The translations under genes were made by a program, and so were the position numbers. Below are positions 316 through 31,394 of a stretch of 51,059 nucleotides of DNA, piece by piece (the first letter of the stretch is position 1; each line of letters opens with the position of its first letter). The stretch lies in the NCBI GenBank assembly GCA_014879845.1, contig JACSRI010000195.1, positions 1-51,059 on the forward strand. Reading direction: 5' to 3'. The notes under the pieces were generated by a model. The model was given only the letters and a program-made list of their open reading frames with translations. It ran no database searches and was not told the origin of the DNA. This DNA is from Opitutaceae bacterium. GTDB lineage: Bacteria; Verrucomicrobiota; Verrucomicrobiia; Opitutales; Opitutaceae.

Positions 316-2745
316 TCACCGCGCGGGGGAGAGGTCGGTCGCGTCGGCCCGCAACAGTCGCAGGTCGAAGATCCCCCCGGCCAGCGAGCGGTCGCGGCCA
401 ACGAAGCGGACCGTCACACGGCCACCCGCAGACCCGGTCGCACCCGAGAGCACAGTCGCCGGCAGCACGTAGCGCTTTTCCACAAACTCCCCGGCCCGCG
501 CGCCATCGAGGTGCTCGGTCGCAAGCAGCGCATCGTTGACGAAGATGTCGAAATGCCGGTCCCGGTCCCACCCCGAATAGGTGACGGACAGGAGCACGTC
601 CGTCTCCCCGCGCGGATCGAGCGTGTATTGGAACCAGCGTCCGTGGCGCCAGCGGCGCCCCTGGAACTCGCCGGAGTCGGTTCCCTCGCCCGCGAAGCCA
701 TGGTCCACCTCGGGCTGCTGCTCGCCGACCGCGACCGCGTCGAGCGTGGCGGCCTCGCGCGCGAGACGGTCGCGCTCCGCAGCTGCCATGCGCTCCTGGC
801 GTGCGGCCAGGCCCTCCATCGTCGTGAGTTCCCAATACATCTGGTAGCGCGCGTCGTGCAGGCGGAAGAAGGGAACAAGTTCCAGCCCGTCGCTCGCCGC
901 TGGATGAGCGACATCGCGGAGCCGGAAGTGCATCGCACCCGCGGCCGGATCGGAGGCGATGTGTTGCGGCAGTTCCGCCGCCGTCGTGAGCAGCACCGGG
1001 ACGCGATCGAGCGGCACGAGCGGTCCGCGGGGGATGTGGGCGCTGCGCGAGTCACCCGCGCGCAGGCCATCGAGATCCTGCGTGCCCGCCGGATGGACCA
1101 TGACGATCGGCCCGTGCAGGATGGCGTGCCAGTCCGACCCGTCGGGCAGGCCCTCGACCGTCGTGCGCATCGGCAGCGCGAGCTCGACGCGGTCGCCATC
1201 GGCCCACATGCGCCGCACCGGCACGTAGGAGGAAGGCTGCGCGCCGGTCGCGACGACCTGGCCGTTGACCGACACGACCAGGCGGCCCGACTCCACCCAC
1301 GCGGGATGCCGCACATGCAGCGTGAACGTCGCCGGTTCCTTCAGCCGCAACGTCAGCTGCGTGCGCTCCTCATCCGGAAAGGCCGTCTCCTGCCGCAACG
1401 TGAGCCCGTGCTCAGGCACCTCGAGTTCCGAGGCGACGAATAGGTTCACAAAAAGCCCATCGGCGGCGCGCGCATAGATGAACCGCCCATAGCGGCCCGG
1501 GTTTTCCATGCCGGAGCCCACGCAGCACCAGAAGTGGTGTTCGGGCACCGAATACACGCGATAGTGCTCGGGACGGATCGGCGTGAAATACACGTAGCCC
1601 GGCACGGTGGGATGAATCGATGCGAGGATGTGGTTGTAGAGCGCACGTTCGTAGTAGTCGACGTGGCGCGCCTCGGGACCGGCCTCGAAGAGCTGCTCGG
1701 TCAGGCGCAGCATGTTGTAGGTGTTGCACGTCTCCGGGCCCTCGCGGTGCTCGAGGAGCGTGCGGAAGTTCGCGGGATCGTTGAAGTGCTCGGAGACGCT
1801 GTTGCCGCCGAAGGCGACGGAGCGGCGCTTTGTCACCGTGTCCCAGAAGAAGCGCGCGCCCGCAGCGGCCTGCGCATCGCTCGCGAGGGCGGAGATGCGC
1901 GCGAGACCAGCGACCTTGGGAATCTGCGTGTTGGCGTGCAGGCCGGTCAGCCGATCCTCGCCACGCATGAGCGGGTCGAGCACGGCGTGATGCGTGAAGC
2001 GGCGCGCCAGCCGCAGGTATTTCTCGTCGCCCGTGAGACCATAGATGTCGGCCAGCACCTCGTTCATGCCGCCGTGCTCGGCGCGCAGCATGTCCTGCAT
2101 CTGCTCGTCGGAGAGACCCGCGACGAGCTGGCCGGCCCAATCGCCAAGGCCGATCAGGACATCTCGCGCCTGCGCGCTGTGCGCGACGACGTGGGCGTCG
2201 CGCAGGCCGGCGAAGATCTTGTGCAGGTTGTACCACGGCACCCATGTGCCGTTGAGACCGAAGCCGTTGGCGTCGATCCGTCCGGCCGCGATGTCCTTCC
2301 ACAGCGCGCGCCCGCCGGGCACGCCACCGATGTAGCCGTCGCCGGCCGCTTCCTGGCAGGCCGCGAGTTCGGCCACCATCGCATCGAGCCGGCGGCGCAA
2401 CTCGCCATCCGGCGTGTCGGCACCGATTGCGATCATTCCAGCGAGGGCCGAGAGATAGTGACCGGCGGTGTGTCCATCGAGGCCGATGCGCTCCCAGTCC
2501 CCGTAACCGGGCTGGCGGGGCTCGAGACCGGCCTCGCGGCGAAACGGCGCGAGCAGCCGATCCGGGTCGTGCGCGAGCAGGTAGGCGCGATTGGCCGCGA
2601 TCGCGTCGGCGAACGGCCCGCTCGTAATGCGCACGGTTTCCGGGGCGAGGAGGCGGGCCGCCGGCAGCTCACCCGCGTTCGCGGCCGTCGCGAGCATGAG
2701 AACCGGCACAACAATCCGGATACAGAGAGGAAGACTGGACATCAT
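316..2745 (-). CDS. GH127-family beta-L-arabinofuranosidase, exported
   Basis: About 809 residues. The start at 2745 puts a signal peptide (MMSSLPLCIRIVVPVLML, cleavage near ATAANA) at the N-terminus; the frame stays open to 2817, but that extension is polar and unlikely to be used. The body is the (alpha/alpha)6-barrel of GH127 (old name DUF1680). The zinc/catalytic signature is complete: ETC near residues 338-340 and the Cys-Cys pair in FWCCVGSGMEN near 407-408, the first of which is the known nucleophile in this family. A beta-rich C-terminal module (roughly 680-800, with GEGTDSGEFQGRRWRHG) matches accessory domains often attached to GH127. Likely role: removal of terminal beta-L-arabinofuranose from arabinan or hydroxyproline-linked side chains in the periplasm. 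A LacI regulator lies 269 bp upstream. Substrate is a family inference; GH146 specificity cannot be excluded. Confidence 0.92.
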   Translation of the reverse strand: MMSSLPLCIRIVVPVLMLATAANAGELPAARLLAPETVRITSGPFADAIAANRAYLLAHDPDRLLAPFRREAGLEPRQPGYGDWERIGLDGHTAGHYLSALAGMIAIGADTPDGELRRRLDAMVAELAACQEAAGDGYIGGVPGGRALWKDIAAGRIDANGFGLNGTWVPWYNLHKIFAGLRDAHVVAHSAQARDVLIGLGDWAGQLVAGLSDEQMQDMLRAEHGGMNEVLADIYGLTGDEKYLRLARRFTHHAVLDPLMRGEDRLTGLHANTQIPKVAGLARISALASDAQAAAGARFFWDTVTKRRSVAFGGNSVSEHFNDPANFRTLLEHREGPETCNTYNMLRLTEQLFEAGPEARHVDYYERALYNHILASIHPTVPGYVYFTPIRPEHYRVYSVPEHHFWCCVGSGMENPGRYGRFIYARAADGLFVNLFVASELEVPEHGLTLRQETAFPDEERTQLTLRLKEPATFTLHVRHPAWVESGRLVVSVNGQVVATGAQPSSYVPVRRMWADGDRVELALPMRTTVEGLPDGSDWHAILHGPIVMVHPAGTQDLDGLRAGDSRSAHIPRGPLVPLDRVPVLLTTAAELPQHIASDPAAGAMHFRLRDVAHPAASDGLELVPFFRLHDARYQMYWELTTMEGLAARQERMAAAERDRLAREAATLDAVAVGEQQPEVDHGFAGEGTDSGEFQGRRWRHGRWFQYTLDPRGETDVLLSVTYSGWDRDRHFDIFVNDALLATEHLDGARAGEFVEKRYVLPATVLSGATGSAGGRVTVRFVGRDRSLAGGIFDLRLLRADATDLSPAR

Positions 2746-9952: not shown

Positions 9953-9960
9953 GTGATTGT

Positions 9961-9965
9961 TCCTC
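9961..9965 (-). promoter_or_regulatory. Ribosome binding site deciding the GTG start of the kinase
   Basis: GAGGA on the minus strand with an 8-nt spacer before the GTG at 9952. No ATG is available in frame near it. Clear Shine-Dalgarno boxes are rare in this window, so this one is informative. Confidence 0.6.
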
Positions 9966-9972
9966 GGGCCTC

Positions 9973-10031: not shown

Positions 10032-10216
10032 CAGCGTAAAGCGGTTTCACGCCGATCTCGTTCGCGTCGCGCGCCGGCGCGCGGACACCGCGCCGCACCT
10101 ATGCCGAAAGTAATACGCGCACGTCTGTCCAACGCCGGGTTGCCGCACCGCGGCCCGGCGTGCCTCCTTCAGCGCGCATCGGTCTACCCTCTCCCCCGGC
10201 TGCATGCCGGTCATGC

Positions 10217-11464: not shown

Positions 11465-11508
11465 CCCGGCGGCGCCGGCCTCCGGGCGACGGCGTCTGCA
11501 CAGCCGCG

Positions 11509-11547
11509 ACAAAACAAAGGGCCTCCGGGGCGATGCCCCGGAGGCCC
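11509..11547 (-). terminator. Intrinsic terminator of the TonB-dependent receptor gene
   Basis: A 13-bp perfect stem (GGGCCTCCGGGGC at 11519-11531, its complement at 11535-11547) with a 3-nt loop. Read on the minus strand it is followed by TTTGTTTTGT (11518-11509), so it is a good Rho-independent terminator 21 bp after the receptor stop. The + strand side has no T-run, but the hairpin may also stop transcripts from the converging XylR-like gene. Confidence 0.85.
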
Positions 11548-11567
11548 TGCGTATCATCTCACTTCGG

Positions 11568-14500
11568 TCAGAATGAGAAGGTATTCGTCATGAATATATA
11601 CTGCGGCGGCCTGATGCGGTAGGCGGCCGGGGTGCCATCCGGTTGGACAGTCACTGGCAACAACTCGTTGCCGACGCCGAGATTCGAGACGTTCAGCTGC
11701 ACGCGCCAGTCGACCTTGTCGTCGAACAGCTTGCGCCGGTAGCCGACCCAGATGTCGAAGTCGAGCATGGCCTCGTCGGTGTAGGGCGCGTTCAGGTCGT
11801 ACCCGATGTAGTTGGCTCCCTGCACCGGTGTGTAGGCGAGCGTCATCTCCGACTGGTAGCGGGCGGCACCACCGATACTCCACCCGCGGAACTTTCCCTC
11901 GCGGAAGTCGTAGTTGGTGACGACATTCACGTGCCAGAGACGGTTCTCCGGAACGACCGTGCCCTGTTCGGCGAGGCGGGCCTTGAGATCGCCATTGGCG
12001 TAGCCGTTCCAGTTCTCGCGGGCGTTGGCCGTGCCACCGGGACCCCAGATGCGCAGGTCGCCCATCACCGTCTCGTTCAGGCGGCGGTCGAAATCGAGCA
12101 GGTAGTCGATCATCGTCATCTCGCCGCCAGGGGCGAGCGTGGTACCGATGTTGTCGCGGTAGGACTTGATCTTCGAGGCATTGACCGAGAGGCGCCAGCT
12201 GTCGGTGACCTGGGCATGCAGCTCGAACTCATACCCCTCGGACAGCAGGTCCTCGGTGAAGCGGAAGCTGCCGAGCCCTGCCTCCGTGAAGTCAGTGCCG
12301 TCCCAGGCGAAACTCCAGGCCTCGCCCATCAGCTGCGGCAACGGAGCCATCTCCGTGAGCCACTGGTCCCAGGCGTTGATGACCGCCACCTCGAGGGCCT
12401 CGGCCTCGGCGAGCGTCTGGCCGTTGAGCGGACGGTAGTCGAAGTTCCACTTCGTCTGCGGATCGTTCGGCTCCGGCACCGGCAGGTCGCTGATGATGTT
12501 GTTGCCGTAGCGGGTGCTGTTCGGCTGGCTGCGGTTCTGGTAGTTGTATTTGATCTGGTGATATGCCTGGGCGTAGATGCCCAGGTTGTTGCCATAGTTC
12601 CAGAACTGCAGGCCTGAGGACGGGTTGTTCTTCACGGCCGACTCGAACTTGTTCACGCGGAGCGAATACTTGCCGTCGCGGGTGGACAGGATGATGCCCA
12701 TGTCCTCGGTCTCACCTGCCGGGAGCGGAAGATCCTGGCCCCAGTAGTCGCTGTAGACCTGGCCGGTCTGGAAGTTCTCCGACTCGTTGTAGGTCGCGCT
12801 GATGCTGACCGGCAGGCGACGCATCCACTGGCCGAGGAACGGCAGTTGGTCGAAGTGCGCCACCACACCCCAGCTGTTCGAATCCGCCTCGACCGGGCCG
12901 AGCGTCGTCACCCGGTAGGGGATTTGCGTCACGTCGTCGGTGCTGATGTCGCGGTTCCACTGCGTCTGCTTCTGGCTGACCTCGTCGTGCCGCTTGCCCA
13001 CCGTCGCGACGATGGAGTCGTCCCACAGCTTGGCCTGCCAGACGAAGGCGTAAGCTTCATTGGAGCGCTCATCCCAGTTACGCGAGTCGGTCAGGGCCGC
13101 GATGTTGCGCGGATCTGCGTCGGTCAACAGCTGCACCTCGCGGGTGACCCAGCCGACGTAGTTCGCCGGGTTCTCGGACTGGGTGGAGAGCGCCGGACCG
13201 CTCGGAAGGGCCGCGGTCACCTGGTTGTACCAGGGGTCGGCCGGATTCACGCCGGTGGCGTTCCAGGTCGAGTCGAAGTAGCGCAGCGTGGCGGTGGAGC
13301 CGATCGTCGGATCCCGGCCCGGCCCGCGCAGGCCGAAGTTGTCTCCAAGGCTGCTTCCAACCAGGCTGCCTCCGATGTAGACGCGGCGCTGGGGCACGAA
13401 GTCGGCCCAGAAGCGGCCGTTGTTGTCCTTGATCTCCTGGAACTGCGGGTGGTTGTAGTAGTCACCGATGAAGGTGCTCTTCACCCAGTTCTCGCCGTAG
13501 CGTTCGTAATCGTCGGTCGACACCATGCCGGTGAGCGTGTGCTGGCCGAGCAGGCGCCAGAACCATGCGCTCTCCTGGGACTTCGCGAAGTCGTGCGTCG
13601 CAAAGGCCGTGGCGCGCACGCTCTCACGGTCGGTCTGCGACCGGCCTTCGCTGTTGCCGACGGTGACGTAGGGGCGACCTTCACCGACGTTCGGGGTGCC
13701 GTCGAGGTACCAGCCGCCCTCGGGCGTGTTGGTGCCGTCGACCCAGCGGGAGTGCACGTCGATGTGGATGGCGTTGCCGACGGGATTGTAGCCTCCGCTC
13801 TTGTAGGTCTCGTCATGGTAGCCGATGTCCACGCCGATCTTGTCGTCGAAGAACGTCTGGCTCAGGGAGGCATCGTAGGTGACGAAGTCATACCACTCAC
13901 GCTTGATGCTCCCGTCGATCATGTGATCGTAGAAGTTGAAGATGCTCGTGTCCGAGATGTACTTGTTCTTCGCGAGCGAGGAGAAGGGCAGCTTCATCTC
14001 GGCCGCGTAGTCCCGGAAGCCGGGCATGCCGCGGGGCCCAGACGGCGCGAGGCCGCCGATGTTGCCGTCGCGTTCCCCGTTGGCGCCGATACCCAGGTAC
14101 GTGACCGGGTTGAGAGCCATGGCCGCGACCGCGACCGACGAGTCGCGCTCGAACTGGAACACGGAGCCGCCGAAGTACCCGGCGTACCCCGCGCCCTGAC
14201 CGCCGAGCAGGGGCTCGAAGTTGGGATTGGGGTTGGGAGGCGTGGCGTAGTCCTGGCGCTGGGAATCACCGCGGCCCGAGATCTGCCAGTTGGCATCGTT
14301 GAGCCAGGCCAGGTTGTAGGTCGGCGTATCGATGCTGAACCAGGGCGTGATGAAGTCCTCCGGCGGCATGTTGCGCGGCCGGTTGCTGGTCGAGGAGCCG
14401 ATCTCGCCGTTGAGCTTGATGATGGTGCGCGCGTTGCCCTTCTTGAGAAATCCCGGCTCATAGCGCAGCGCCATGTATTGCCGGTCGTTGTCCTCGAAGC

Positions 14501-15281
14501 CGGGCTTCTGCTTGAACTCGGTCGCATTGACGACCGCCGCGAGTCGCACCGCGAGTTCGTCGTCGACGAGTTCGCGGTTGAGATCCAGCGCGGTGCGCAC
14601 GCTGCCATACTGGTCGAGGCGAAGGCTGGCCTCGCCGAAGTTGCGATACGCGGCCTGCTTGCTGCGGGTGTTGATGACGCCGGCCGGGCTGCCCTGGCCG
14701 AAGAGGATGGCGTTGGGTCCGCGCTGGATGTCGACCGCGTCGACGTTGTAGCCGTCCCAGGGGACATTCGTCAGGTAGAGGTCGCGGGTGTTGTCTGCAC
14801 CGACAAGACCACGCACGCGGTTTGTCGACTGCGGGTTGGCGAACGCTGCGCTCGAGTCAGGCGAGATGCCGCCGCCCGATCCGGAGTAGTTGCCCATGAT
14901 GCCGCCCACCTCGGTGCCCAAGGTGTATTGGAGCAGCGACCGTTGATCCGTCGCACCGACGTCCTCCATGAACTGGCTGTTGTAGATGGAGAGGGAGGTG
15001 CCGAGGTCCTTGAGCTCGGTGCTCAGGCGATTGCCCGCGAGCGTGCGCGCGGTGACGTAGCCGTCGGCGGAATCGTCGGCCACGACCTCGAAAGGAGAGA
15101 GCGTGACCACATCCTCTTCGTCGCCCACATTCGCGGCGACTCCAGCGGTCGAGGCCTCCGGCGCCGCGGCGGTCGCCGGCGCGGGGGAGGTCGTTTGAGC
15201 CAGGGCCACTCCGGGGATCATCGCCATCGCGGCGACGAGGGGAGCGGCGGGGCCCGGTATGTATCTGCGTAGGTTTGCCAT
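11568..15281 (-). CDS. TonB-dependent outer-membrane receptor (large, Opitutaceae type)
   Basis: 1237 residues from ATG at 15281. A signal peptide (about 1-29, ending PGVALAQ) is followed by an alanine-rich linker and a TonB-box-like segment (VVTLSPFEVVAD, about 58-69). The plug domain follows (LGTSLSIYNSQFMEDVGATD, then VDIQRGPNAILFGQGSPAGV), and the remainder is the beta-barrel, ending in the aromatic C-terminal signature YIFMTNTFSF. At more than 1200 residues it is longer than siderophore receptors and fits the substrate-size receptors abundant in Opitutae. No SusD-like lipoprotein gene is nearby. It probably imports xylan- or arabinan-derived oligosaccharides, judging from the GH127/GH43 neighbours. 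It diverges from the FG-GAP/STT3-like/TPR triad. Confidence 0.94.
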   Translation of the reverse strand: MANLRRYIPGPAAPLVAAMAMIPGVALAQTTSPAPATAAAPEASTAGVAANVGDEEDVVTLSPFEVVADDSADGYVTARTLAGNRLSTELKDLGTSLSIYNSQFMEDVGATDQRSLLQYTLGTEVGGIMGNYSGSGGGISPDSSAAFANPQSTNRVRGLVGADNTRDLYLTNVPWDGYNVDAVDIQRGPNAILFGQGSPAGVINTRSKQAAYRNFGEASLRLDQYGSVRTALDLNRELVDDELAVRLAAVVNATEFKQKPGFEDNDRQYMALRYEPGFLKKGNARTIIKLNGEIGSSTSNRPRNMPPEDFITPWFSIDTPTYNLAWLNDANWQISGRGDSQRQDYATPPNPNPNFEPLLGGQGAGYAGYFGGSVFQFERDSSVAVAAMALNPVTYLGIGANGERDGNIGGLAPSGPRGMPGFRDYAAEMKLPFSSLAKNKYISDTSIFNFYDHMIDGSIKREWYDFVTYDASLSQTFFDDKIGVDIGYHDETYKSGGYNPVGNAIHIDVHSRWVDGTNTPEGGWYLDGTPNVGEGRPYVTVGNSEGRSQTDRESVRATAFATHDFAKSQESAWFWRLLGQHTLTGMVSTDDYERYGENWVKSTFIGDYYNHPQFQEIKDNNGRFWADFVPQRRVYIGGSLVGSSLGDNFGLRGPGRDPTIGSTATLRYFDSTWNATGVNPADPWYNQVTAALPSGPALSTQSENPANYVGWVTREVQLLTDADPRNIAALTDSRNWDERSNEAYAFVWQAKLWDDSIVATVGKRHDEVSQKQTQWNRDISTDDVTQIPYRVTTLGPVEADSNSWGVVAHFDQLPFLGQWMRRLPVSISATYNESENFQTGQVYSDYWGQDLPLPAGETEDMGIILSTRDGKYSLRVNKFESAVKNNPSSGLQFWNYGNNLGIYAQAYHQIKYNYQNRSQPNSTRYGNNIISDLPVPEPNDPQTKWNFDYRPLNGQTLAEAEALEVAVINAWDQWLTEMAPLPQLMGEAWSFAWDGTDFTEAGLGSFRFTEDLLSEGYEFELHAQVTDSWRLSVNASKIKSYRDNIGTTLAPGGEMTMIDYLLDFDRRLNETVMGDLRIWGPGGTANARENWNGYANGDLKARLAEQGTVVPENRLWHVNVVTNYDFREGKFRGWSIGGAARYQSEMTLAYTPVQGANYIGYDLNAPYTDEAMLDFDIWVGYRRKLFDDKVDWRVQLNVSNLGVGNELLPVTVQPDGTPAAYRIRPPQYIFMTNTFSF

Positions 15282-15679
15282 ATTGGGTATTGCTTCGAGC
15301 TAGCGAGCCACGTCCGGCAGTAACCGGACCGGACGGGGGTGTTGATTCGATCGGACTCCGAGAACGATGCTTGTGTAAGCTGTGGGCACCGGGTGAGGGC
15401 GACCACGGCGTGGGGAGGGGGATACGAACGCGCACCCGCCCGCCGCTGGCGGCGGCGATCGAGTGACGTCGCGACGAAAATACCAGTGCCCGCGTCGTCC
15501 GATCTACGGACGGTTTGCGACACTGCGGATCACCTTTTGCGGCGGCTGCACGCACGCGACGGCGTCGCCTATGCCTGAAGACATAGGCGACGCTATGCCC
15601 ACTGCGGATTTGCTGCACCAACCGCCGGCGGCAGCGTCAGTCACCTACTCCGAAGGAACCGCAGGCGCCTACCCTCGCC
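15282..15679. other. 398-bp divergent intergenic region
   Basis: This separates the TonB receptor (minus) from the FG-GAP protein (plus). No open frame with plausible composition or RNA gene is seen. The only structured element I can support is the palindrome/direct-repeat cluster at 15562-15599. Promoters for both directions must lie here, but no convincing -35/-10 pair is visible. Confidence 0.6.
15562..15599. promoter_or_regulatory. Palindrome with overlapping direct repeat, candidate operator
   Basis: A perfect 12-bp inverted repeat: GCGTCGCCTATG at 15562-15573 and its complement at 15582-15593, with loop CCTGAAGA. A further CTATGCC at 15593-15599 repeats the one at 15569-15575 in the same direction, 24 bp apart. 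The left arm plus loop (15564-15580) recurs with one mismatch at 4342-4358. It lies 81 bp upstream of the FG-GAP start codon and about 280 bp from the receptor start. It could be an operator or a 5'-leader hairpin; which regulator uses it is unknown. Confidence 0.55.
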
Positions 15680-18600
15680 ATGCCGGCCGCCCGCCCCGTC
15701 GTCCTCCGACCTCCCCGCACCTTGACGTCCGTCCCCTCGACCCTTTCCACGTTCGCCGGGTTTGCCGTCGCCTTCACGCTCGCCGCGCCCGCCGCCGGAG
15801 CCACCGACGGGCTCGCGCGCAACCATCTCCCCGCGCCGTCGCACCCCGCGGGCGCGACGCTGTTCACCACCCTGAGTCCCGAAGAGACGGGCATCACCGT
15901 GCGCAATCCCTACGACGACCCGTCGATGTGGGGAAAACGCTACCGCGAGTACATGGGTGGTGCGATGGGCTCTGGCGTCGCGGTGGGCGATTTCGACAAC
16001 GACGGCCGGGCGGACATCTATATCAGCACCAAGACCGCGCGCGGCCGACTCTACCGCAACCTCGGCGCCTGGAAGTTCGCCGACGTGACGGACGACGCCG
16101 GCCTCGGCGAGGCCGGCTCGATGCTCGGCTGGATCAAGAGCACCGTCTCGAGTTCCAAGACGATCGTCTGGCACCAGGGCGCGGTGTTTGCCGACATCGA
16201 CAACGACGGCTGGCTCGACCTGTACGTATGCCGCAACAACGCGCCGAACCTGCTCTTCATCAACCAGCGCGACGGCACCTTCGCGGAGCAGGCCGAAGCA
16301 CGTGGGCTCGCCGTGGTCGACGGCAGCGCCGTCGGCGCCTTCGCCGACTACGATCGCGATGGCTGGCTCGACGTGCTCGTACTCACCAACCAGGTCGACG
16401 GAACCGAAGCGGCCGGTCGCGCCGACCGCCTCTTTCGCAACATCGGTGACGGACGTTTCACCGAGGTGACGAAAGAGTCGGGCATCGCCGGCAACACGTT
16501 CGGCCATTCGGCCACGTGGTTCGAATACGACGGCGACGGCTGGCCCGATCTCTACATCGCCAACGACTTCGCCGGCCCCGACCGCCTCTATCGCAACAAC
16601 CGCGACGGCACGTTCACCAACGTGCTCGATGCCGCCGTGCCGCACACGCCCTACTCGTCGATGGGCGCCGACGTGGCGGACGTGGACAACGACGGGCACT
16701 TCGACCTGCTCGTCGCCGACATGGCGACGACCACGCGCGAGAAGGACCGCCGCGGCCTCGCCGCCTCGCGCGACGACGTACTCATGATGGGCACGCGCGC
16801 CGGCACCGCGCCGCAGTACATGCGCAACGCACTTCTGCTGAACACAGGCTTGGGCGTGTTTCGCGAGGCCGCGTGCTGGGCCGGAATCGACGCGACGGAC
16901 TGGACGTGGTCGCCGCGTTTCGAGGATTTCGACAACGACGGCTGGCAGGATCTCCACATCACCAACGGCATGGTCCGCGAGGCGAACAACGGAGATCTCC
17001 TCGCGCGGATGATGCGCGCCCTTTCCGATCAGGAGCGCATCAACGTGATGAAAAACTCGCCGCTCCTCGCCGAGGCCAACCTCGCCTACCGCAACGCCGG
17101 CGGCCTCGGCTTCGAGTCCGTCGGCCCCGCCTGGGGTCTCGACGAGGTCGGCGTGAGTTTTGGTTCCGCGACAGGCGACTTCGACGGCGACGGCGACCTC
17201 GACCTCGTGTATCTGAACTACGACGGCGGTGTCTCCGTCCTGCGCAACGACACCTCCGGGCACCACCGCGTATTGGTGCGCCTGCGCGGGACGCGGTCCA
17301 ATCGCTTCGGCATCGGCGCGATCGTGCGCATCGAGACGGCATCCGGCCATCAGGCGCGCACGCTGACGGTGGCACGTGGATACGCCTCGGGGAGCGAGCC
17401 GGTGGCGCACTTCGGGCTCGGCTCGGACGCGCGCATCGAGCGGCTGATCGTCGAGTGGCCCTCGGGCACGCGCCAGGTGTTCGACGATCTCGAGGCTGAT
17501 TCGGCGTACGTCATCACCGAGGCGGACGCGTCGGTATCGGCCGCCGCGGAGAACCCGGCGTCGCCGATGTTTCTCCCCGCGCCCGAGGCGCTCGGTCTCG
17601 CCGTTGCCGACGCGTCGACCCTCGCGATCCCGGACAAGGAGCAGGTCTTCATCCCATTTCGCACCGATCGCAGTGGTCCGGCCGTGGCTGTGGCCGACAT
17701 GGATGGCGACGGCCACGACGACATCTATCTCGGGGCCACGTCCGGCTCACCCGCGCGGCTCCTGCGCTGGAAAGCCGGCGCCTATCAGGCCGAGGCCGTC
17801 GACGGCGTGCCGGCCGGCAAAGTCGAGGATGGCCCGGCGCTGCTCTTCGACGCGGACGACGACGGGCGCCTCGATCTCCTCGTCACGAAGGCAGGAGTCG
17901 CGTCCGGCGCCTGGCCCGCCGCGTATCAGCCGATTCTCTACACTCAGGATGGCCGCGGGCTGTTCTCCCCGACCGACCGAATTCCCCAGCTCTCCGTCCA
18001 TGCCGGCGCGGCCGTCTCGGCCGATATCGATGGCGACGGAGACCTCGATCTCTTCCTCGGCGGACGCTCCGTGCCCGGCCGCTATCCCGAGACTCCGCAG
18101 AGCGCACTGTTGCGCAACGACGCGGGACGTTTCGTCGATATCACGGCGGCGACGCCGGGCCTCGAGCGCGTCGGCCTGGTGAAGAGCGCGCTCTTCCGCG
18201 ATGTCGACCGCGATGGCCGCACGGACCTCGTGATCGCCACCGAGTGGGGCCATGTGCGGTATTTCCGCAACACCGACGGAGCGACGTTCACCGACCGCAC
18301 CGCCGAGGCGGGATTCGACACGGGTGGCCGCGGCTGGTGGAACGGCCTCGCCGCCGCCGACCTCAATGGCGACGGCCGCCCGGACTTCATCGCGGGCAAC
18401 CTCGGGTTCAACACGACCTATCGCGCGTCGCCGCAGCACCCCGCGACGCTGCTCCACGGCGATTTCGCCCAGAATGGCACGAAGCTCCTGGTCGAGGCGG
18501 TCCACGACGGCGATCACCTCTTTCCGCTGCGCGCGCGCGTCGACCTCGGCGCACGCCTGCCCTTCATCCTGCGCAAGTTCCCGAAGAACGACGACTTCGC

Positions 18601-19318
18601 CCGCGCGCCGCTGTCGGCGATCTTTGGCGACGCCGTCGTGCGGGCTGCCACACGGCTCACTGCAGACAATTTCGCCTCGGGTGCCTTTGTGAGCCAGGCC
18701 GACGGACGATACTTGTTCGTTCCCTTCCCGCGGGTCGCCCAGATCGGACCGATCCTTGGCCTCGTCGCCGCCGATCTCGACGGCGATGGCGTCACCGACA
18801 TCGCCGCCACGCAAAACTCGGACGCCGCCATCCCACGATTCCACGGCGGCGTCGGGCTCGTCCTGCGCGGACGCGGCGACGGCTCGTTCGTGGCGCTCGA
18901 GCCGACCGAGTCAGGCGTCGTCGTCGCCGGCCACGCCCGAGGACTCGTCATCGTCGACGCCGACGACGACGCACGCCCCGACCTCCTTCTCACGCAACAC
19001 GGCGGCTCCGCCCTCGGACTTGGCAACCAGACTTCGTCTGTCGCGTGGTTGAAGATCCGCCTGGTCGACGCCCACGGCCTTCCGGTCGTCGCAGGCGCGC
19101 GCCTGACGATCCGGTTTTCCAACAACGCGACCGCCGACCTCGAGAACGGCCTGGGCGGCGGTTGGCTCAGTCAATCCAGCGCCGATCACTTCGTCGCGCA
19201 GCGACCCGACGCCCGAGTGCGGGAGGCATCCGTACGCTGGCCCGATGGCACGACCTCTCGGCATGCCGACGTCCCCGAGCACGGGACCTGGATGCTGCGC
19301 ACACCCCGCCAGCCATGA
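15680..19318 (+). CDS. Tandem FG-GAP/UnbV (CRTAC1-like) exported protein
   Basis: 1212 residues; a long signal peptide (about 22-41) indicates export. The protein is a doubled unit. Seven Ca-binding FG-GAP motifs of the form DxDxDGxxD stand near residues 101, 171, 222, 280, 333, 414 and 498, followed by a UnbV/ASPIC domain (about 528-617; RFGIGAIVRIETASG, IVEWPSGTRQVF). Seven more motifs occur near 672, 723, 781, 840, 893, 1031 and 1091 (the last degenerate, DADDDARPD), followed by a second UnbV-like end (about 1117-1212; ASVRWPDGTTSRH). This suggests two seven-bladed propellers, each capped by UnbV. The family is named for cartilage acidic protein 1; bacterial function is unknown, with binding to glycan or protein partners likely. 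The stop overlaps the next ATG (ATGA), so it is translationally coupled to the STT3-like gene. Confidence 0.93.
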   Translation: MPAARPVVLRPPRTLTSVPSTLSTFAGFAVAFTLAAPAAGATDGLARNHLPAPSHPAGATLFTTLSPEETGITVRNPYDDPSMWGKRYREYMGGAMGSGVAVGDFDNDGRADIYISTKTARGRLYRNLGAWKFADVTDDAGLGEAGSMLGWIKSTVSSSKTIVWHQGAVFADIDNDGWLDLYVCRNNAPNLLFINQRDGTFAEQAEARGLAVVDGSAVGAFADYDRDGWLDVLVLTNQVDGTEAAGRADRLFRNIGDGRFTEVTKESGIAGNTFGHSATWFEYDGDGWPDLYIANDFAGPDRLYRNNRDGTFTNVLDAAVPHTPYSSMGADVADVDNDGHFDLLVADMATTTREKDRRGLAASRDDVLMMGTRAGTAPQYMRNALLLNTGLGVFREAACWAGIDATDWTWSPRFEDFDNDGWQDLHITNGMVREANNGDLLARMMRALSDQERINVMKNSPLLAEANLAYRNAGGLGFESVGPAWGLDEVGVSFGSATGDFDGDGDLDLVYLNYDGGVSVLRNDTSGHHRVLVRLRGTRSNRFGIGAIVRIETASGHQARTLTVARGYASGSEPVAHFGLGSDARIERLIVEWPSGTRQVFDDLEADSAYVITEADASVSAAAENPASPMFLPAPEALGLAVADASTLAIPDKEQVFIPFRTDRSGPAVAVADMDGDGHDDIYLGATSGSPARLLRWKAGAYQAEAVDGVPAGKVEDGPALLFDADDDGRLDLLVTKAGVASGAWPAAYQPILYTQDGRGLFSPTDRIPQLSVHAGAAVSADIDGDGDLDLFLGGRSVPGRYPETPQSALLRNDAGRFVDITAATPGLERVGLVKSALFRDVDRDGRTDLVIATEWGHVRYFRNTDGATFTDRTAEAGFDTGGRGWWNGLAAADLNGDGRPDFIAGNLGFNTTYRASPQHPATLLHGDFAQNGTKLLVEAVHDGDHLFPLRARVDLGARLPFILRKFPKNDDFARAPLSAIFGDAVVRAATRLTADNFASGAFVSQADGRYLFVPFPRVAQIGPILGLVAADLDGDGVTDIAATQNSDAAIPRFHGGVGLVLRGRGDGSFVALEPTESGVVVAGHARGLVIVDADDDARPDLLLTQHGGSALGLGNQTSSVAWLKIRLVDAHGLPVVAGARLTIRFSNNATADLENGLGGGWLSQSSADHFVAQRPDARVREASVRWPDGTTSRHADVPEHGTWMLRTPRQP

Positions 19319-21756
19319 CGTCCGCGCGCCATCCGTCACCATCCGCACCTGCGATCCCGACCGGCCGCGCCGGACTGATGAGGGCCGCGCCGTGGCTGGC
19401 GCTGATCCTCCTGATGCTGGCATGGGTGATCCGAACCGACACGGCCCACGCACACCGGGTCGTCAGTCTCTCCGCGGAGGGGAGCGCACCCCCTGATATC
19501 GACGCGCATTCATCCACAGGATACGCGCTCGGCCAGCGGCACTTTCTCGGCACGCACGAGCGCGGCGACACCTACCGGTGGATCGCGGCTACACAGCACA
19601 TCCTGGTCGAGGGTCCGCTGGCCGACGTGCCCGCGATGGACAACGTCCCGCAAGGCCGGATCCAACTCGGGCCCCGACTCTACACCGTCTGGCTGGCCGC
19701 GTGCGCGTGGGTTCATCACGTGCTCTCGGGCGACCCACTCGCGCTCAGCGCGGAGCGAATGGCGCTTTGGGAACCAGTCATCACGCACGTCCTCGCTTTC
19801 TGTGCCGCGGTCGTCCTGTTCTGGCGACGCTCCGGCCCAGGCGGGGCCGTCGCAGTCGGCTTGGTGTTCGCGGCGTTTCCGCCGGTGCTCGCGCAGTTTC
19901 TACCGGGTGTGCTCACGCCGCGCACGTGGGCACTCCTGCTCGCCGCGGGCGCCCTGATCCCGCGGCGGACCCCGGGCGAGGCGACGACATCGCCGCATGT
20001 CGTCAGCACGGGGCGCGCGGTCGCAGCGGCATTGTCTCTCTGGCTCACGCCGGCGATCGGCTTCCCGGTAGTGTTGATCGCGGGGCTCTCCGGCGCGGCC
20101 TGCGTCGGCCACGATCGAGCGCGGGTGCCGTTCCTCGGCTGGTCGTGCCTCGGATCACTCATGACACTCGGGGCGTGGCTGATCGATCGCAGTCCATGGG
20201 ACCTGGCTGCCGGCGAACTGCGTTACGTCCATCCGATCTACGCCGTCGCGTGGCTCGGCCTGGGCGTCGCCCTCGATGGCTGGCAGCGACTCCGCAGGGG
20301 AGGAGTCCGACGCCTCTGGGCGGTGATTGAATTCGCCGCCGGGGCGATGCTCCTCGCGATACTCGTGTATGTGCAGGTGGCGCACCACGACCTCGGCTGG
20401 CTCTACCCCGGAGCCTCGTTGCGTCGCCTCACTTCGCTCGATGAGACGCGCGTATCTTCCTCCGCGGCCGCCTGGCTGGCTCAGGCTCCCCCGGCCGAAA
20501 CCGTGCTGACACTCGCACCGATCGTCGGAGCGCTCGCGGTGTTCGCCGCGGCCTTCGCCCGAGCGCGCCCCAGCTCGCCCCAGGACCGGCACACGCTCAC
20601 CACCGCGATCCTGCCGATGGTGGCTGTGTTCGCCGTCGGTCTCGTCCAACTGCGCCTGCTCGTCGTCGCGACACTCGTCGCCGTGCCGCTCATCCTCGAC
20701 CTAGCCGTCCGGACGTCGACGTCGGTTCGGCGCATCGCGGTCACCGCCCTGGGGGCCCTTCTTGTCGCGGCCCTGGCCGGCGAGAAGTCGTTGCCGCACA
20801 CGCTTCGCCGGTCGAACGATGCCGCCATGCCCAGCCCGGCCGACGTCCAGGCGCTCGTGCACCGCCACATCGCGCGCTGGATGGCGACCCATCATCCGCC
20901 CGGGTCCGTCGCCGCGCTCGCGCCTCCGGAGCTCTCCGACTCGCTGGTGTTTCATGGCGGCTGCCGTGTGCTCATGTCGACGGCTTGGGAAGCCTATGCC
21001 GGGCAGGTTGCCGCGTCGCGCATCCTCAGTTCGCCCGAGGCCACCGAGGCCGAAGCCGTCATCGAAAGCCGCGGGGTCACCCACCTCGTGCTGCCTTCGT
21101 GGGATCGCGTGCTGCCGCTGCTGACCAAGGCCCCGCTCGAGCCGGACAAGACCACGCTCCTCGCCCGACTCGACGTGTGGAAACTGCCCCCCTACCTGCG
21201 GCCGCTGCCCTACCATCTGCCTCCGGCACCTGGATACGAACGCGAGAAGCTCGCCATCTTCAAGGTGGTGCCCGCGCAGGAGGAGGCGTTGCTTCTGAGC
21301 CGGCTGGCCGAGTACTTCGTCGAAATGAACCGCGCCGAGCCCGCCGCGCTCGCCGCCAAGGTTCTCGACGAGGCTTACGCCGACGACCCCAACGCGAGGG
21401 TGGCGCGGGCGGCCGTCTGGGCCCAGCAGAAGAAGCCCGCGCTTTTCGAGCGCGAGTTCGAGGCGCTCGCCGCCGCCACGACCGCAGGCCAGGTGCCGTT
21501 TGAATGGGATCGCAGGGTGCAACGCGCCATCATCCTCGCGGTCGGCCGCCGCCCGGACCTGGCCCGCACCGAGATCGAGGCCTGCCTGACCGCGGCCACG
21601 CCGGACCTGGTTTTCGATCTCACGCCGATGCAGGCCCACCGCGTGGCCGAGCTCGCCCGGCGCTACTCACTCGACTTCCCGAGCCCGGAGACGGCGGCCG
21701 CGATCGCCGCGGTGGGTTCGGAGTATCGCGTATCCACCGACACGCGACCTCGCTGA
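19315..21756 (+). CDS. Divergent STT3/PglB-like GT-C membrane protein
   Basis: 813 residues from the ATG at 19315, which overlaps the preceding stop by four bases. About ten or more hydrophobic helices lie between residues 26 and 500. The first outer loop carries GTHERGDTYRWIA (Asp85) and then MDNVPQGR...GPRLYT (Asp109), matching the D-x-x-Y-x-x-R and D-x-x-P-x-G pattern of STT3-type oligosaccharyltransferases. After the membrane part, APPELSDSLVFHGGCRVLM and VTHLVLPSWD fit the soluble segment that in STT3 begins with WWDYG, but WWDYG itself is missing, as is the DHH motif. A helical C-terminal tail (about 660-813) is extra. I infer a GT-C fold glycosyltransferase relative with altered or lost sequon binding. 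The residue patterns are seen; the family link is my recognition and needs a profile search. A generic PMT-like enzyme is the alternative. Confidence 0.7.
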   Translation: MTSARHPSPSAPAIPTGRAGLMRAAPWLALILLMLAWVIRTDTAHAHRVVSLSAEGSAPPDIDAHSSTGYALGQRHFLGTHERGDTYRWIAATQHILVEGPLADVPAMDNVPQGRIQLGPRLYTVWLAACAWVHHVLSGDPLALSAERMALWEPVITHVLAFCAAVVLFWRRSGPGGAVAVGLVFAAFPPVLAQFLPGVLTPRTWALLLAAGALIPRRTPGEATTSPHVVSTGRAVAAALSLWLTPAIGFPVVLIAGLSGAACVGHDRARVPFLGWSCLGSLMTLGAWLIDRSPWDLAAGELRYVHPIYAVAWLGLGVALDGWQRLRRGGVRRLWAVIEFAAGAMLLAILVYVQVAHHDLGWLYPGASLRRLTSLDETRVSSSAAAWLAQAPPAETVLTLAPIVGALAVFAAAFARARPSSPQDRHTLTTAILPMVAVFAVGLVQLRLLVVATLVAVPLILDLAVRTSTSVRRIAVTALGALLVAALAGEKSLPHTLRRSNDAAMPSPADVQALVHRHIARWMATHHPPGSVAALAPPELSDSLVFHGGCRVLMSTAWEAYAGQVAASRILSSPEATEAEAVIESRGVTHLVLPSWDRVLPLLTKAPLEPDKTTLLARLDVWKLPPYLRPLPYHLPPAPGYEREKLAIFKVVPAQEEALLLSRLAEYFVEMNRAEPAALAAKVLDEAYADDPNARVARAAVWAQQKKPALFEREFEALAAATTAGQVPFEWDRRVQRAIILAVGRRPDLARTEIEACLTAATPDLVFDLTPMQAHRVAELARRYSLDFPSPETAAAIAAVGSEYRVSTDTRPR

Positions 21757-21771
21757 CGCCGGGTCGACCCC

Positions 21772-23601
21772 ATGGAGATGCCTCGACGCGACTCGCCACC
21801 TGCTTCGTCCCCGCCGACGATGGTCAGCCCGGGACGGTCGCACCGTCGCGCACGGGAGTGGCTAGCCGGTGGTATGATCGTGCTGATGGCCGTGCTCGCC
21901 GGCGCGGTCTGGATGCGGTCGCCACGCGTGGCGGATGCGCTTGACGCCGGCGAGCTTCCCGCGGTGCCGGACCTGTCCGCCCGGCCCGCCATCCTCGCCG
22001 ATTCGATCGCCGAGGCCATGGCGCTGGCGCACGTAAGCAGCTCGCGACTGGCGGGAGTCATCGAGCTGGGCCGGCTCTATCACGCCAACCAGCTTTCGCG
22101 GGAAGCGGAGACGTGCTGGGAGTTGCTGCGCCGTGCGCAGCCTGAGGAGCCCCGCTGGTGCTACTACCTCGCCGACCTGCGCCGCACCGCCGGCGACCAG
22201 GACGGCATGATCGCACTCCTGAAAGAGACCCTCCGGCTCGCTCCCGACTACGCCCCGGCGCGGCTTCAGCTTGCCAACGTCGAGCTGAAGACCGGCAAGC
22301 TCGTCGAAGCCGAGGCCAACTTCCGCCTCCGCCTGGACGCGCTGCCCCGGGATCCCTACGCCCGCCTCGGGCTCGCCCGCGTGGCCATGCAGCAGGGACG
22401 TGACAGGGAGGCACGCGGGCTGCTTGAGGCGCTGCTGCAGGACACCCCGCATTTCTCCACCGCCCACAACCTCTATGCCGGAATCCTCGCGGCCGCCGGT
22501 GACGAAGCCGAGGCGGCCCGCCATCGCTGGCTCGGGCAGGAAACTCTGCGCTTCCGCGAGGCGGAGGATCCCTGGCTCGACGAACTGGATACATGGTGCC
22601 ACGACTACGACCGGCTGTGTGCCCGCGGCACCCTCGAGTTTCTGAGCGAGCGCCACGATGCGGCCCGCGACCTTTTCACGCGGGCGATCCGGCTCCGACC
22701 CGACGTCCCCCAGGCGTATGAACTCCTAGCCGACCTGCACCTTCAGCGCCACAAACCGGACGAGGCGCGCGATCTGCTCGAGGCGGCCCAGCCGAAGCTG
22801 AACATCCAGCCATCGCATCACTTCTTCACGACACTCAGCCAGGCCAACCGCGAGTTGAAGCAACCCGCCGAGGCGATTCGCGTGGCACGCGAGGGCCTAG
22901 CCCAGGCGGAAAACACCCCCGAACTGCACGACGCCCTCGGGCTCGCGCTCGCCGAGGCCGGGCAACACGAGGAGGCCGTTCATGCCTGGCAGGCCGGCCT
23001 CGCGCAGCGCCCGGGCGACGCCAGCATGAACTACAACCAGGCGCTCTCGCTCCTCGAACTCCGACGGCTCGACGAAGCGCTCACGGCACTCGACCGCTCG
23101 CTCACGCTGCAGCCGACGTTTCTCCCGACACTTCTCCTGCGCGGCGAGATCGAGATCCAGGCGGGTCACCTCGAACTCGCGGAGAAGTTCCTGCGTCCCG
23201 CGATCGAGTCGCATCCTGAACATCCGCAGGCGCGCCGGCTGATGGCGGCGTGGCACCTGGGCATGGGTGGCGCAGCGAGCGCGGCGAACGACGCACCCGC
23301 CGCGGAACGGCACTATCGGGCCGGACTCGATCTCGTCCCCGATCATCCCGGACTCCTGCTTCATCTCGGCGTGACCTGCCTGTTGAATCGCCGATTCAAG
23401 CAGGCCGTCGACCCCCTCACCGCCTACCACACGCTGCAGCCCGATGATCCCCAGGGTTGCCTGTTTCTCGGTCAGGCCTACGCGGGGAGCCGGCAAGTCG
23501 ACAAGGCCCGCGAGATCCTGCACCGCGGCGCCCGACTCGCGGAAGAGGCTGGCAAGGGCGCGACCGCGGCGCGCTGCCGCAGGATCCTCGAGCAGCTGTA
23601 A
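21772..23601 (+). CDS. Membrane-anchored tetratricopeptide-repeat protein
   Basis: 609 residues starting 15 bp after the STT3-like gene, so in the same operon. After a basic N-terminus there is a single membrane segment (about 31-48, GGMIVLMAVLAGAVWM), which places the rest in the periplasm. Residues 70-609 are helical TPR repeats, many with the W/L/G/Y/A/A pattern (for example QAYELLADLHLQRHKPDEAR and TLLLRGEIEIQAGHLELAEK); I count roughly a dozen, some degenerate. TPR proteins act as scaffolds, so it probably assembles the FG-GAP and STT3-like proteins or their target. No enzyme motif is present. It converges with the esterase operon. Confidence 0.92.
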   Translation: MEMPRRDSPPASSPPTMVSPGRSHRRAREWLAGGMIVLMAVLAGAVWMRSPRVADALDAGELPAVPDLSARPAILADSIAEAMALAHVSSSRLAGVIELGRLYHANQLSREAETCWELLRRAQPEEPRWCYYLADLRRTAGDQDGMIALLKETLRLAPDYAPARLQLANVELKTGKLVEAEANFRLRLDALPRDPYARLGLARVAMQQGRDREARGLLEALLQDTPHFSTAHNLYAGILAAAGDEAEAARHRWLGQETLRFREAEDPWLDELDTWCHDYDRLCARGTLEFLSERHDAARDLFTRAIRLRPDVPQAYELLADLHLQRHKPDEARDLLEAAQPKLNIQPSHHFFTTLSQANRELKQPAEAIRVAREGLAQAENTPELHDALGLALAEAGQHEEAVHAWQAGLAQRPGDASMNYNQALSLLELRRLDEALTALDRSLTLQPTFLPTLLLRGEIEIQAGHLELAEKFLRPAIESHPEHPQARRLMAAWHLGMGGAASAANDAPAAERHYRAGLDLVPDHPGLLLHLGVTCLLNRRFKQAVDPLTAYHTLQPDDPQGCLFLGQAYAGSRQVDKAREILHRGARLAEEAGKGATAARCRRILEQL

Positions 23602-23609
23602 CCGCCTGC

Positions 23610-23632
23610 AACCTACGCGCCCTGCGCAAGGT

Positions 23633-23633
<1 letters not shown>
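23610..23633. terminator. Possible bidirectional terminator between convergent genes
   Basis: AACCT at 23610-23614 pairs with AGGTT at 23629-23633, with an inner GCGC/GCGC pairing, in the 31-bp gap between the TPR gene and the last esterase. The stem is short and imperfect and no T-run follows, so this is a weak call. Confidence 0.25.
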
Positions 23634-24595
<962 letters not shown>

Positions 24596-25729
24596 CTATT
24601 CCTTGAAGAATCGCTGCAGCGTCTCGGCCAGGTAGTGGCGGGCGTTCATCCAGGTGTGGCCGCCATCCGTGACGAGCGTGGCGTGTTCGATCTTCTTTTC
24701 CGTGAGGAAACCTTCGAAGGCAACCGCCTGCTGGTAGAGAAAGTCGCTCCGGCCGACGCCGAGCCAGAGCAGCCGGAGGCGGGCGTTGGTCTCGTCGGGC
24801 CGCGCGAAGAACCCGGCGAAATGCGTCTCGCAGACCTCCGGCGTGAGAAAGGCCGAGTAGGATGCGATCCACGCGAATTTGTCCGGATGGCTCAAGGCTG
24901 TGAACAGCGCCTGCCCGCCCCCGCGGGAGAACCCCGCGATGGCCCGGTGCTCGCGGTCGGTCACGATGCGGTAGTCGGCCTCGACCCTTGGCACGATCTC
25001 ACCAAGCAGCTCGTCGCAGAAGGCTCGATACATTGCGGCCACCTGCGGCGTGTTCGGGTCCGGCATGCCGCTGAGCATGTTGCCATACGGCATCACGACA
25101 ATCATCGGCACGGCCTTTCCCTCGGCGATGAGGTTGTCGAGGATGACATTGACGCGCCCGGCGCGAAACCACGTCTCCTCGGTGTCCGTCGTGCCGCTCA
25201 CGAGATAGAGCACCGGATACTTCGCACCGCTGGCGCGATAGTCCGGCGGCGTGTAGACGAGGTACGGCCGCGTGCGATTGAGCGCCCGGGAGTCGTAGAA
25301 ACGGTAGGTTACCTCCCCGCGCGGCACGCTCCGCACGGCGTGCAGCGACGGCGTCTCACCCGGGATGTCCACCAGGCTGGCCTTGAACCGTTCGTTCGGG
25401 AAGACGTCCGGGTTTGCGGGATCGGCCACGCCGACGCCGTCGACGACGAAGTTGTAGGGGTAGAGGTTGGGCTCGATCGGGCCGACCGTGATGGTCCAAA
25501 GGCCGGCCTCGTCCTTCTGCATCGGCAGCTTGGCCGGCAGAAACTGGCCGCTCAACTCAACCTTCAGCGCCTCGGTTGCCCGCAGACGAAAGGTGACGGT
25601 GCGGTCCGGATGAACGACGGGCGACTCGAGCGGCGGAGCACGGTGGCCCTGCGCGGCGGCGCCCAGGACGAGCGCGCTGGCGAGCAGCGTCGCAAAAACG
25701 GAGCGGAGGCGGGATGCGGATGATCTCAT
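24596..25729 (-). CDS. CE1-type esterase with N-terminal E-set (CBM48-like) domain, exported
   Basis: 377 residues. A signal peptide (about 8-27) is followed by a beta-sandwich of about 90 residues (VTFRLRATEALKVELSG, then LYPYNFVVDGVGVADP), the E-set/CBM48-like module that precedes many feruloyl esterases of this type. The catalytic domain shows YPVLYLVSGTTDTEETW, nucleophile Ser268 in GFSRGGG (Arg where Met is commoner), Asp in GVGRSDFL and His in TDGGHTWMNAR. The triad is complete. It sits 18 bp after the alpha/beta hydrolase gene and 48 bp before the related esterase. Likely role is deacylation of a decorated hemicellulose. Confidence 0.92.
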   Translation of the reverse strand: MRSSASRLRSVFATLLASALVLGAAAQGHRAPPLESPVVHPDRTVTFRLRATEALKVELSGQFLPAKLPMQKDEAGLWTITVGPIEPNLYPYNFVVDGVGVADPANPDVFPNERFKASLVDIPGETPSLHAVRSVPRGEVTYRFYDSRALNRTRPYLVYTPPDYRASGAKYPVLYLVSGTTDTEETWFRAGRVNVILDNLIAEGKAVPMIVVMPYGNMLSGMPDPNTPQVAAMYRAFCDELLGEIVPRVEADYRIVTDREHRAIAGFSRGGGQALFTALSHPDKFAWIASYSAFLTPEVCETHFAGFFARPDETNARLRLLWLGVGRSDFLYQQAVAFEGFLTEKKIEHATLVTDGGHTWMNARHYLAETLQRFFKE

Positions 25730-25747
25730 CGATCGCAGCGCCTCGCT

Positions 25748-26554: not shown

Positions 26555-26609
26555 AGGGTAAGTGCAGCGAACTCCGGGCAGCGATGACGACATCGGCGCT
26601 GAGCCGGGC

Positions 26610-31393: not shown

Positions 31394-31394
31394 G

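Follow-up and report, generated by a model that had tools for sequence, protein, structure and literature searches.

A candidate pseudo-oligosaccharyltransferase paired with a doubled CRTAC1-like propeller protein at TonB receptor loci of Opitutaceae

The DNA considered here, called the window throughout, is a stretch of 51,059 nucleotides (positions 1 to 51,059) of contig JACSRI010000195.1 from an Opitutaceae bacterium (assembly GCA_014879845.1). Our subject is a pair of overlapping genes within it, named FGGAP2 and STT3L, together with their neighbours. FGGAP2 (15680-19318, forward strand) encodes a doubled CRTAC1-like FG-GAP/UnbV protein of 1212 aa with ten stretches matching Pfam FG-GAP_3 and two matching UnbV_ASPIC. 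It is followed on the same strand by STT3L (19315-21756), encoding an inner-membrane protein of 813 aa, which has an STT3/AglB fold and a C-terminal TPR-like domain in its AlphaFold2 model and is predicted to be a pseudo-oligosaccharyltransferase, and by a gene for a TPR protein of 609 aa with a hydrophobic N-terminal segment (21772-23601, forward strand; Pfam TPR; 483 bits with the hidden Markov model (HMM) of its family), an optional member of the module. On the reverse strand lies the gene of a TonB-dependent receptor (TBDR) of 1237 aa (11568-15281; 1511 bits with the TBDR HMM), whose Plug stretch and TonB-receptor NCBIfam matches all remain below cut-off. The arrangement recorded in the initial annotation is real: the ATGA at 19315-19318 overlaps the STT3L start with the FGGAP2 stop, 15 bp separate STT3L from the TPR gene, and the TBDR gene diverges from FGGAP2 across an intergenic region of 398 bp (15282-15679). 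Third-position GC is 0.82-0.89 across the four frames. The gene calls were made by script and their start positions may be off.

Both proteins are recognizable by predicted structure. The AlphaFold2 model of FGGAP2 has a predicted local distance difference test score (pLDDT) of 81.9. Its residues 26-592 superimpose on murine CRTAC1 (9etn_A) with Z 40.8 and a root-mean-square deviation of 2.5 over 456 aligned residues at 25% identity, while the second half matches diverse propellers, LGI1 first (Z 30.1), so that the description of the FG-GAP protein as doubled was correct. The order typical of CRTAC1/ASPIC-UnbV proteins, an FG-GAP propeller and then a UnbV_ASPIC domain, is present in FGGAP2, and we read its N-terminus as signal-peptide-like. 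STT3L matched no Pfam or NCBIfam model at E ≤0.01, and the oligosaccharyltransferase (OST) model PF02516 matched none of the 24 STT3L members of alignment A3, window protein included, at E ≤0.1. Nevertheless, the earlier label "STT3-like" is right by predicted fold. The STT3L model (pLDDT 88.4, from 24 sequences) has the GT-C fold with many transmembrane helices and a periplasmic soluble domain that marks OSTs, and all 19 rows at E ≤0.001 in a Foldseek search against the PDB were OSTs. In structure comparison, archaeal AglB (3waj) gave Z 19.7 over 525 aligned residues, yeast and human STT3 gave Z 17 to 19 and bacterial PglB about 13; OST chains headed the VIA list, the first 14 rows of which had Z 17.7-19.7. 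The C-terminal helical domain (residues 656-802; 21280-21720, forward strand) matches TPR proteins, for example 4hnx_A over 656..802. Mapping of STT3L residues to solved OSTs by sequence profile yielded no alignment of the OST membrane domain.

The conserved unit is the dyad of FGGAP2 and STT3L, usually near a TBDR, and not the triad with the TPR gene. Relatives of STT3L were found in 83 of 200 Opitutaceae-family genomes (E ≤1e-8), frequently with several copies in one genome. A wider sample of 387 genomes across the phylum, with two candidates scored in each, gave relatives in 33 (E ≤1e-15). Going by record titles, all 26 named loci encoding such relatives are from Opitutaceae or other Verrucomicrobiota; soil and marine verrucomicrobia are among the carriers. 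Six single-contig genomes of the family hold 21 STT3L genes, one of them split into two matches, and, after merging of fragments, 37 FGGAP2 genes; the STT3L set was defined by profile A1 at E ≤1e-20, a profile that does find intact relatives elsewhere. In these genomes an FGGAP2 gene is found no farther than 5 kb from 20 of the 21 STT3L genes, a number that in 20,000 random trials averaged 0.38 and peaked at 4; for 18 of them the distance is at most 500 bp. Of the 37 FGGAP2 genes, 24 have an STT3L gene within 5 kb. In three of the six, with TBDR matches merged by coordinates before the test, a P0004-type TBDR lies no more than 10 kb from 14 of 15 STT3L genes, where random trials averaged 1.1 and never exceeded 6. 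The two proteins also covary: distances among STT3L proteins covary with those among the nearest FGGAP2 proteins (Mantel r 0.88, n=47 loci). When the clade of the window's orthologues was removed, r was 0.86 for STT3L and FGGAP2 (n=37), 0.42 for STT3L and TBDR and 0.26 for FGGAP2 and TBDR (n=20); the last value was attained in 40 of 2,000 permutations and the other two in none. Over the 47 loci the two genes are divergent in 30, convergent in 5, ordered FGGAP2 then STT3L in 11 and the reverse in 1. As their orientation differs between loci, the pair is preserved while the operon layout is not.

Linkage of all three genes had been proposed, with a shared neighbourhood as its test; it stands, far above chance, for FGGAP2 and STT3L, which occur together with a TBDR in all nine orthologous loci (L041-L049), but the TPR gene is no fixed neighbour. 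It adjoins STT3L in none of the nine, and the triad as a unit was therefore rejected. In one of them (L043) a TPR gene of the window's family lies on the far side of the TBDR, at the limit of the stretch, and in four the far side encodes a single FG-GAP protein of about 430 aa (FGGAP1). Among 48 loci with an aligned STT3L from the FGGAP2-linked clade described below, FGGAP2 exceeded 600 bits in 44, a TBDR was present in 35, FGGAP1 in 15 and a TPR protein above 250 bits in 13, all of these counts being lower bounds from stretches of at most 20 kb, some of which stop at contig ends. Loci L041-L100 were taken non-randomly from a ranked list, with weaker matches sampled in part; none of L101-L126 was counted, 14 being duplicates of loci already in the set. 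The TPR gene is thus accessory. By simple patterns, a lipobox occurs in 6 of 11 FGGAP1 and 0 of 48 FGGAP2 proteins, and 8 of 12 TPR proteins have an N-terminal hydrophobic stretch. Among the NCBIfam TPR models that match the TPR protein of the window, T3SS_chap_SctY alone passes its cut-off (71.1 versus 70 bits), which we read as a generic TPR match; the others (e.g. PrsT) stay below theirs. At a second locus in the same genome (L004), TBDR, TPR, FGGAP1, STT3L and FGGAP2 are found all together.

A sensor histidine kinase with a Y_Y_Y domain (6914-9952, reverse strand; Pfam) and its partner response regulator (Response_reg, GerE; 6276-6914, reverse strand; Pfam) accompany TBDR, FGGAP2 and STT3L in 9/9 of the orthologous loci. 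They lie past the TBDR in the window and on the STT3L side, downstream of or just beyond STT3L, in the orthologues. This constancy would suit a trans-envelope sensor in which FGGAP2 or the TBDR reports cargo through STT3L and the TPR protein to the linked kinase and regulator. We regard such a sensor as improbable, however, as kinase and regulator occur together in only 11 of the 48 clade loci, again a lower bound, and the kinase has a sensory Y_Y_Y part of its own.

The 85 STT3L proteins of a tree computed with the motif columns removed fall into two groups, split by a single branch (LG+G4, SH-aLRT, the Shimodaira-Hasegawa-like approximate likelihood ratio test, 100), and in an LG+C20 mixture tree with more columns removed a single branch splits them again (SH-aLRT 99); both trees are quick searches, unrooted and with long branches flagged. 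A grouping into 54 and 31 proteins by the DHH motif and FGGAP2 linkage coincides exactly with the two sides of this branch in both trees. A doubled FGGAP2 (>300 bits) lies within 5 kb of 50 of the 54 and, in the stretches seen, of none of the 31, which keep the OST motifs and are called intact here; for 23 proteins, those from L100 among them, the status of unlinked refers to 7-20 kb of sequence, cut short in some cases by the end of a contig. Of 62 STT3L proteins, one of fewer than 700 aa was dropped before alignment; separately, L136 was dropped as a duplicate of L155. Four genes missed by the gene caller (L080, L084, L096 and L099) were checked outside the tree: the first two are degenerate and the last two keep the motifs. 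Intact relatives are themselves poorly recognized by family models, PF02516 matching 2/8 and the archaeal STT3 model TIGR04154 (E ≤1) matching 7/8, far under its cut-off of 450 bits.

The two sides differ in the residues of OST chemistry. In AglB, as described in excerpts of PMC8342417, the metal is held by Asp47 of the first DXD motif and by Asp161 and His163 of the second (Asp-His-His), and Glu360 of TIXE acts via water; the equivalents in PglB and yeast are given in excerpts of PMC7226087. On the intact side the Asp of external loop 1 (EL1) is present in 31/31 proteins, Asp-x-His in 30/31 (one has DHQ) and the Glu of external loop 5 (EL5) in 31/31, all three together in 30/31, in the forms known from AglB (DHH, and TIXE variants such as TIAE). 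The full set occurs in 0/54 on the FGGAP2 side, even with neighbouring positions allowed. A motif search on ungapped sequences found all three motifs in 31/31 and 0/54, respectively. As the grouping used the DHH motif, the DHH count is partly so by construction, while the EL1 and EL5 counts are independent of it; two FGGAP2-side proteins retain DHH and have neither the EL1 Asp nor the EL5 Glu. In the window's STT3L, T201-P-R203 (19915-19923, this and the following positions on the forward strand) stands in place of the Asp-His-His of the other side, which is Asp161-His-His163 in the AfAglB excerpts of PMC8342417. V380 (20452-20454) occupies the TIXE Glu column, and W558-E559 (20986-20991) lies at the WWDYG-like position, where intact relatives have YWEN. 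The W of YWEN is found in 31/31 intact and 24/54 clade proteins, its equivalence to WWDYG being one of position and similarity. The motif D109-N-x-P-x-G-R115 (19639-19659) is conserved on both sides of the tree. Fifteen columns conserved to at least 90% on the intact side fall below 50% in the clade (D85, H118, W119, H202, H203, Y288, Y292, R301, E303, V304, N305, E380, Q445, Y557 and W558), and six of these are OST-motif positions (D85, H202, H203, E380, Y557 and W558). Conversely, 12 columns are newly conserved in the clade, among them W522, E578, W596 and D597 of the soluble domain; the newly conserved acids, E578 and D597, lie in that domain and none in the membrane part. As judged from the alignment, this pattern fits a loss of OST chemistry with a retained or gained binding surface.

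Since the full acid set is present in 0/54 proteins on the FGGAP2 side and in 30/31 on the other, glycosylation by STT3L, as proposed in the initial annotation, is disfavoured; to the extent that residues can tell, they argue against it. The chief rival to our interpretation nevertheless builds on this proposal, because it would explain the pairing as well: STT3L might be an active GT-C glycosyltransferase of altered, metal-independent chemistry, similar to DPY19 or PMT, that glycosylates FGGAP2 or the TBDR. The GT-C fold, which extends to DPY19 (Z 17.6), and the tight pairing with one possible substrate, FGGAP2, speak for such an enzyme, as do D109, E147 and D291, where 98, 98 and 96% of clade members carry an acid. 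However, on the intact side an acid is about as frequent at these three positions (1.00, 0.87 and 1.00), which thus look structural, the lost columns include the OST-motif and YWEN/WWDYG-like positions with no new acid in the membrane part, and no gene for donor synthesis was seen in the window's module; at other loci, neighbours were labelled for the module families only. We consider this enzyme rather unlikely, though it is the alternative that we take most seriously.

STT3L proteins of the FGGAP2 side are under purifying selection, with ratios of nonsynonymous to synonymous substitution (dN/dS) of 0.14-0.28 in five pairs. It is therefore most improbable that STT3L is a decaying relic that lies near FGGAP2 by chance. 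Lost active-site residues and a few listed copies with internal stops would agree with decay, as would one locus (L124, 6407-12191) in the metagenome-assembled genome (MAG) of the symbiont Candidatus Synoicihabitans palmerolidicus, in which FGGAP2 and STT3L are each broken into several open fragments, as if decayed jointly. On the other hand, most listed copies are open over most of the query, and the covariation with FGGAP2 is strong. We also considered that STT3L might assist an intact STT3 co-occurring in its cell. All 18 STT3L proteins examined of the 21 in the six genomes are degenerate and none is intact, and PF02516 matched in only 1 of 9 module genomes (G000, on contig C171), compared with 4 of 14 controls (all archaea); absence of PF02516 is weak on its own, as the model catches so few intact relatives. 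Because of both results the helper role is unlikely, and a degenerate STT3L seems not to need an intact one.

The PF02516 match on contig C171 is a paralogue from the window's own genome (26.7 bits, cut-off 24.5 bits). The locus (L010, positions 12001-32000 of that contig) encodes this intact STT3-type protein, with genes at 9338-11758, 11768-13747, 13783-15714, 15987-16667 and 16781-19999. Its neighbours are two proteins with many transmembrane segments and TPR repeats (one with a PMT_2 match below cut-off), a GT2-like protein and a TBDR. We take this type of multi-transmembrane TPR-repeat protein to be TMTC-like, and the GT2-like label comes from the N-terminus. The locus is a candidate for true protein glycosylation. 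At four further loci (L094, L096, L098 and L099) an intact STT3L stands beside TBDRs in the absence of a doubled FGGAP2; three of these have a CRTAC1-like match of about 510 aa, which in L094 and L096 forms part of open reading frames about 1,400 aa long. This arrangement is possibly an intermediate stage. In another family of the phylum, intact STT3-type genes arranged as tandem pairs, with the OST motifs kept, occur at L145 (7589-11600) and L146 (8445-12280).

FGGAP2 is also found outside the dyad. In a plasmid collection, two records carry a relative that extends over 80% or more of its length, one from Hymenobacter volaticus and one from Gemmatirosa, where two relatives lie in tandem; STT3L was not found in the Hymenobacter (27 kb) or Gemmatirosa stretch. 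In H. volaticus the relative, a VCBS-repeat protein, is encoded immediately after the TonB receptor and SusD genes; GH127, beta-L-arabinofuranosidase and GH3 genes belong to the same locus. As this SusC/SusD locus has FGGAP2 without STT3L, FGGAP2 looks like a protein of uptake loci independently of STT3L, which looks like an addition to it in Opitutaceae and near relatives. The window shares the TBDR, the doubled FG-GAP protein, GH127 and GH3 with the Hymenobacter locus, which differs in having SusD and, within its 27 kb, neither STT3L nor a TPR protein of the family. On another contig of the window's genome (C111; L001/L002), five CRTAC1-like FG-GAP/UnbV genes, some single and some doubled, follow one another in a stretch with no STT3L match.

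The four genes of the window are surrounded by genes for glycan degradation, comprising glycoside hydrolases (GH127, GH43, GH97 and GH3) and esterases, one of which matches a feruloyl-esterase NCBIfam model below cut-off. An AraC-type regulator with a periplasmic-binding-protein domain (10160-11464, forward strand; Pfam), which we take to be XylR-like, has a counterpart of 51-52% identity in L041-L043. A TonB-dependent receptor with glycan-active enzymes, the combination by which SusCD-type loci are recognized, is thus present, and no SusD/RagB match was obtained with Pfam among the 28 window proteins scanned, which cover 26 of 27 gene calls. We read the locus as an arabinoxylan-type utilisation locus. 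Its nature, together with the OST fold, might suggest a periplasmic processing role for STT3L, with imported glycans or lipid-linked sugars as substrates. This is very improbable, given the active-site loss and the hydrolases and esterases of the locus, which already cover degradation; moreover, the enzymes known to have an OST fold are sugar transferases. Elsewhere in the window (37898-40822) lies a second TBDR, of another type, with a CarboxypepD_reg domain; genes for a major facilitator superfamily transporter, GH2, GH20 and GH28 are nearby, in a seemingly separate locus. Neither an Rfam match at gathering score nor a tRNA was found in the window.

From the linkage, covariation, predicted folds, residue loss and purifying selection reported here we infer, at about even odds (probability roughly 0.5), that STT3L is a pseudo-oligosaccharyltransferase recruited as the inner-membrane partner of FGGAP2 in glycan-uptake loci, here of the arabinoxylan type. 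FGGAP2 would be exported and fold as a CRTAC1-like propeller with a second propeller. STT3L would reside in the inner membrane with its OST fold, periplasmic domain and C-terminal TPR-like domain, and its lineage, associated with FGGAP2 and TBDRs and devoid of the OST site, is the sister, one branch away, of verrucomicrobial STT3-type proteins that keep the active site. It may retain the hold of an OST on polypeptide, perhaps also on polyprenyl lipid, and transfer no sugar. Such a protein, facing the periplasm, could be dedicated to docking or escorting FGGAP2 on its emergence from the translocon. From there FGGAP2 might be passed on toward the outer membrane by FGGAP1 lipoproteins and anchored TPR proteins, in loci that have them, and at the outer membrane it would partner the TBDR in glycan binding or capping, in the manner of SusD. 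The cargo in the window may be feruloylated arabinoxylan fragments.

Several observations weigh against this interpretation. Many GT-C enzymes work without a metal, so that missing OST ligands are no proof of inactivity, and DPY19, a C-mannosyltransferase, ranks near the top for the STT3L model. Single positions persist in the clade of 54: an acid in the EL1 column in 25, Asp-x-His in 11 and Glu in the EL5 column in 5, with an acid within three residues of the latter column in 37; a loose TIXE-like pattern taken alone matches 21. D63 (42/54), D109 and R115 are still conserved. The window's STT3L itself retains D85 (19567-19569, forward strand), the EL1 position of the first DXD Asp, which is D in 5/54 of the clade, and has E377 three residues upstream of the Glu column. 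Columns were assigned by alignment and motif identity with AfAglB rather than by residue-level superposition, and, the tree being unrooted, loss instead of gain of the acids is suggested by the identity of the intact motifs with those of archaeal OSTs. Thirteen of the 37 FGGAP2 genes in the six genomes have no STT3L within 5 kb. With the window's orthologues included, STT3L and FGGAP2 also covary with the TBDR (r 0.70 and 0.57, respectively; n=30). Contact between STT3L and FGGAP2, escort and surface location are indirect inferences.

With OST subunits STT3/AglB/PglB (PF02516) STT3L shares the predicted fold over membrane and soluble domains, and with its intact verrucomicrobial relatives the first-loop DNxPxGR motif; it is set apart from OSTs by the missing family match and acid set, the TPR-like domain and the linkage to FGGAP2 and TBDR. 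FGGAP2 has the FG-GAP repeats and UnbV_ASPIC of CRTAC1, but is bacterial, carries a second propeller and a second UnbV stretch, and belongs to TBDR loci. A more distant parallel is 7w72_U (Z 11.3), presumably PIG-U, a GT-C-like subunit of the glycosylphosphatidylinositol (GPI) transamidase that has no transfer activity. It shares the GT-C-type fold with STT3L, but is eukaryotic, has different partners and is structurally far less similar than OSTs. While the folds of the parts are known, the combination and the inactive OST-like branch are undescribed as far as the literature search reached: no description of an FGGAP2-STT3L module appeared among the matches listed, preprints and most subscription journals lying outside the search. 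The earlier view of an envelope module tied to a TBDR and with no assigned function in these matches thus holds.

In broader terms, we tentatively propose, at somewhat less than even odds, a verrucomicrobial pseudo-oligosaccharyltransferase, an STT3 lineage without sugar transfer that is the inner-membrane partner of a CRTAC1-like double propeller doing the job of SusD at TonB receptors. If true, glycan uptake would have a further, new architecture, and a catalytically dead OST would serve as a protein-export or assembly factor. It would give a testable role to a family invisible to Pfam and NCBIfam, of which many Opitutaceae have several copies per genome. Intact and disarmed OST-fold proteins one branch apart would form a natural set for parting catalysis from peptide handling, and the dyad hints at how bacteria without SusD may equip their TonB receptors.

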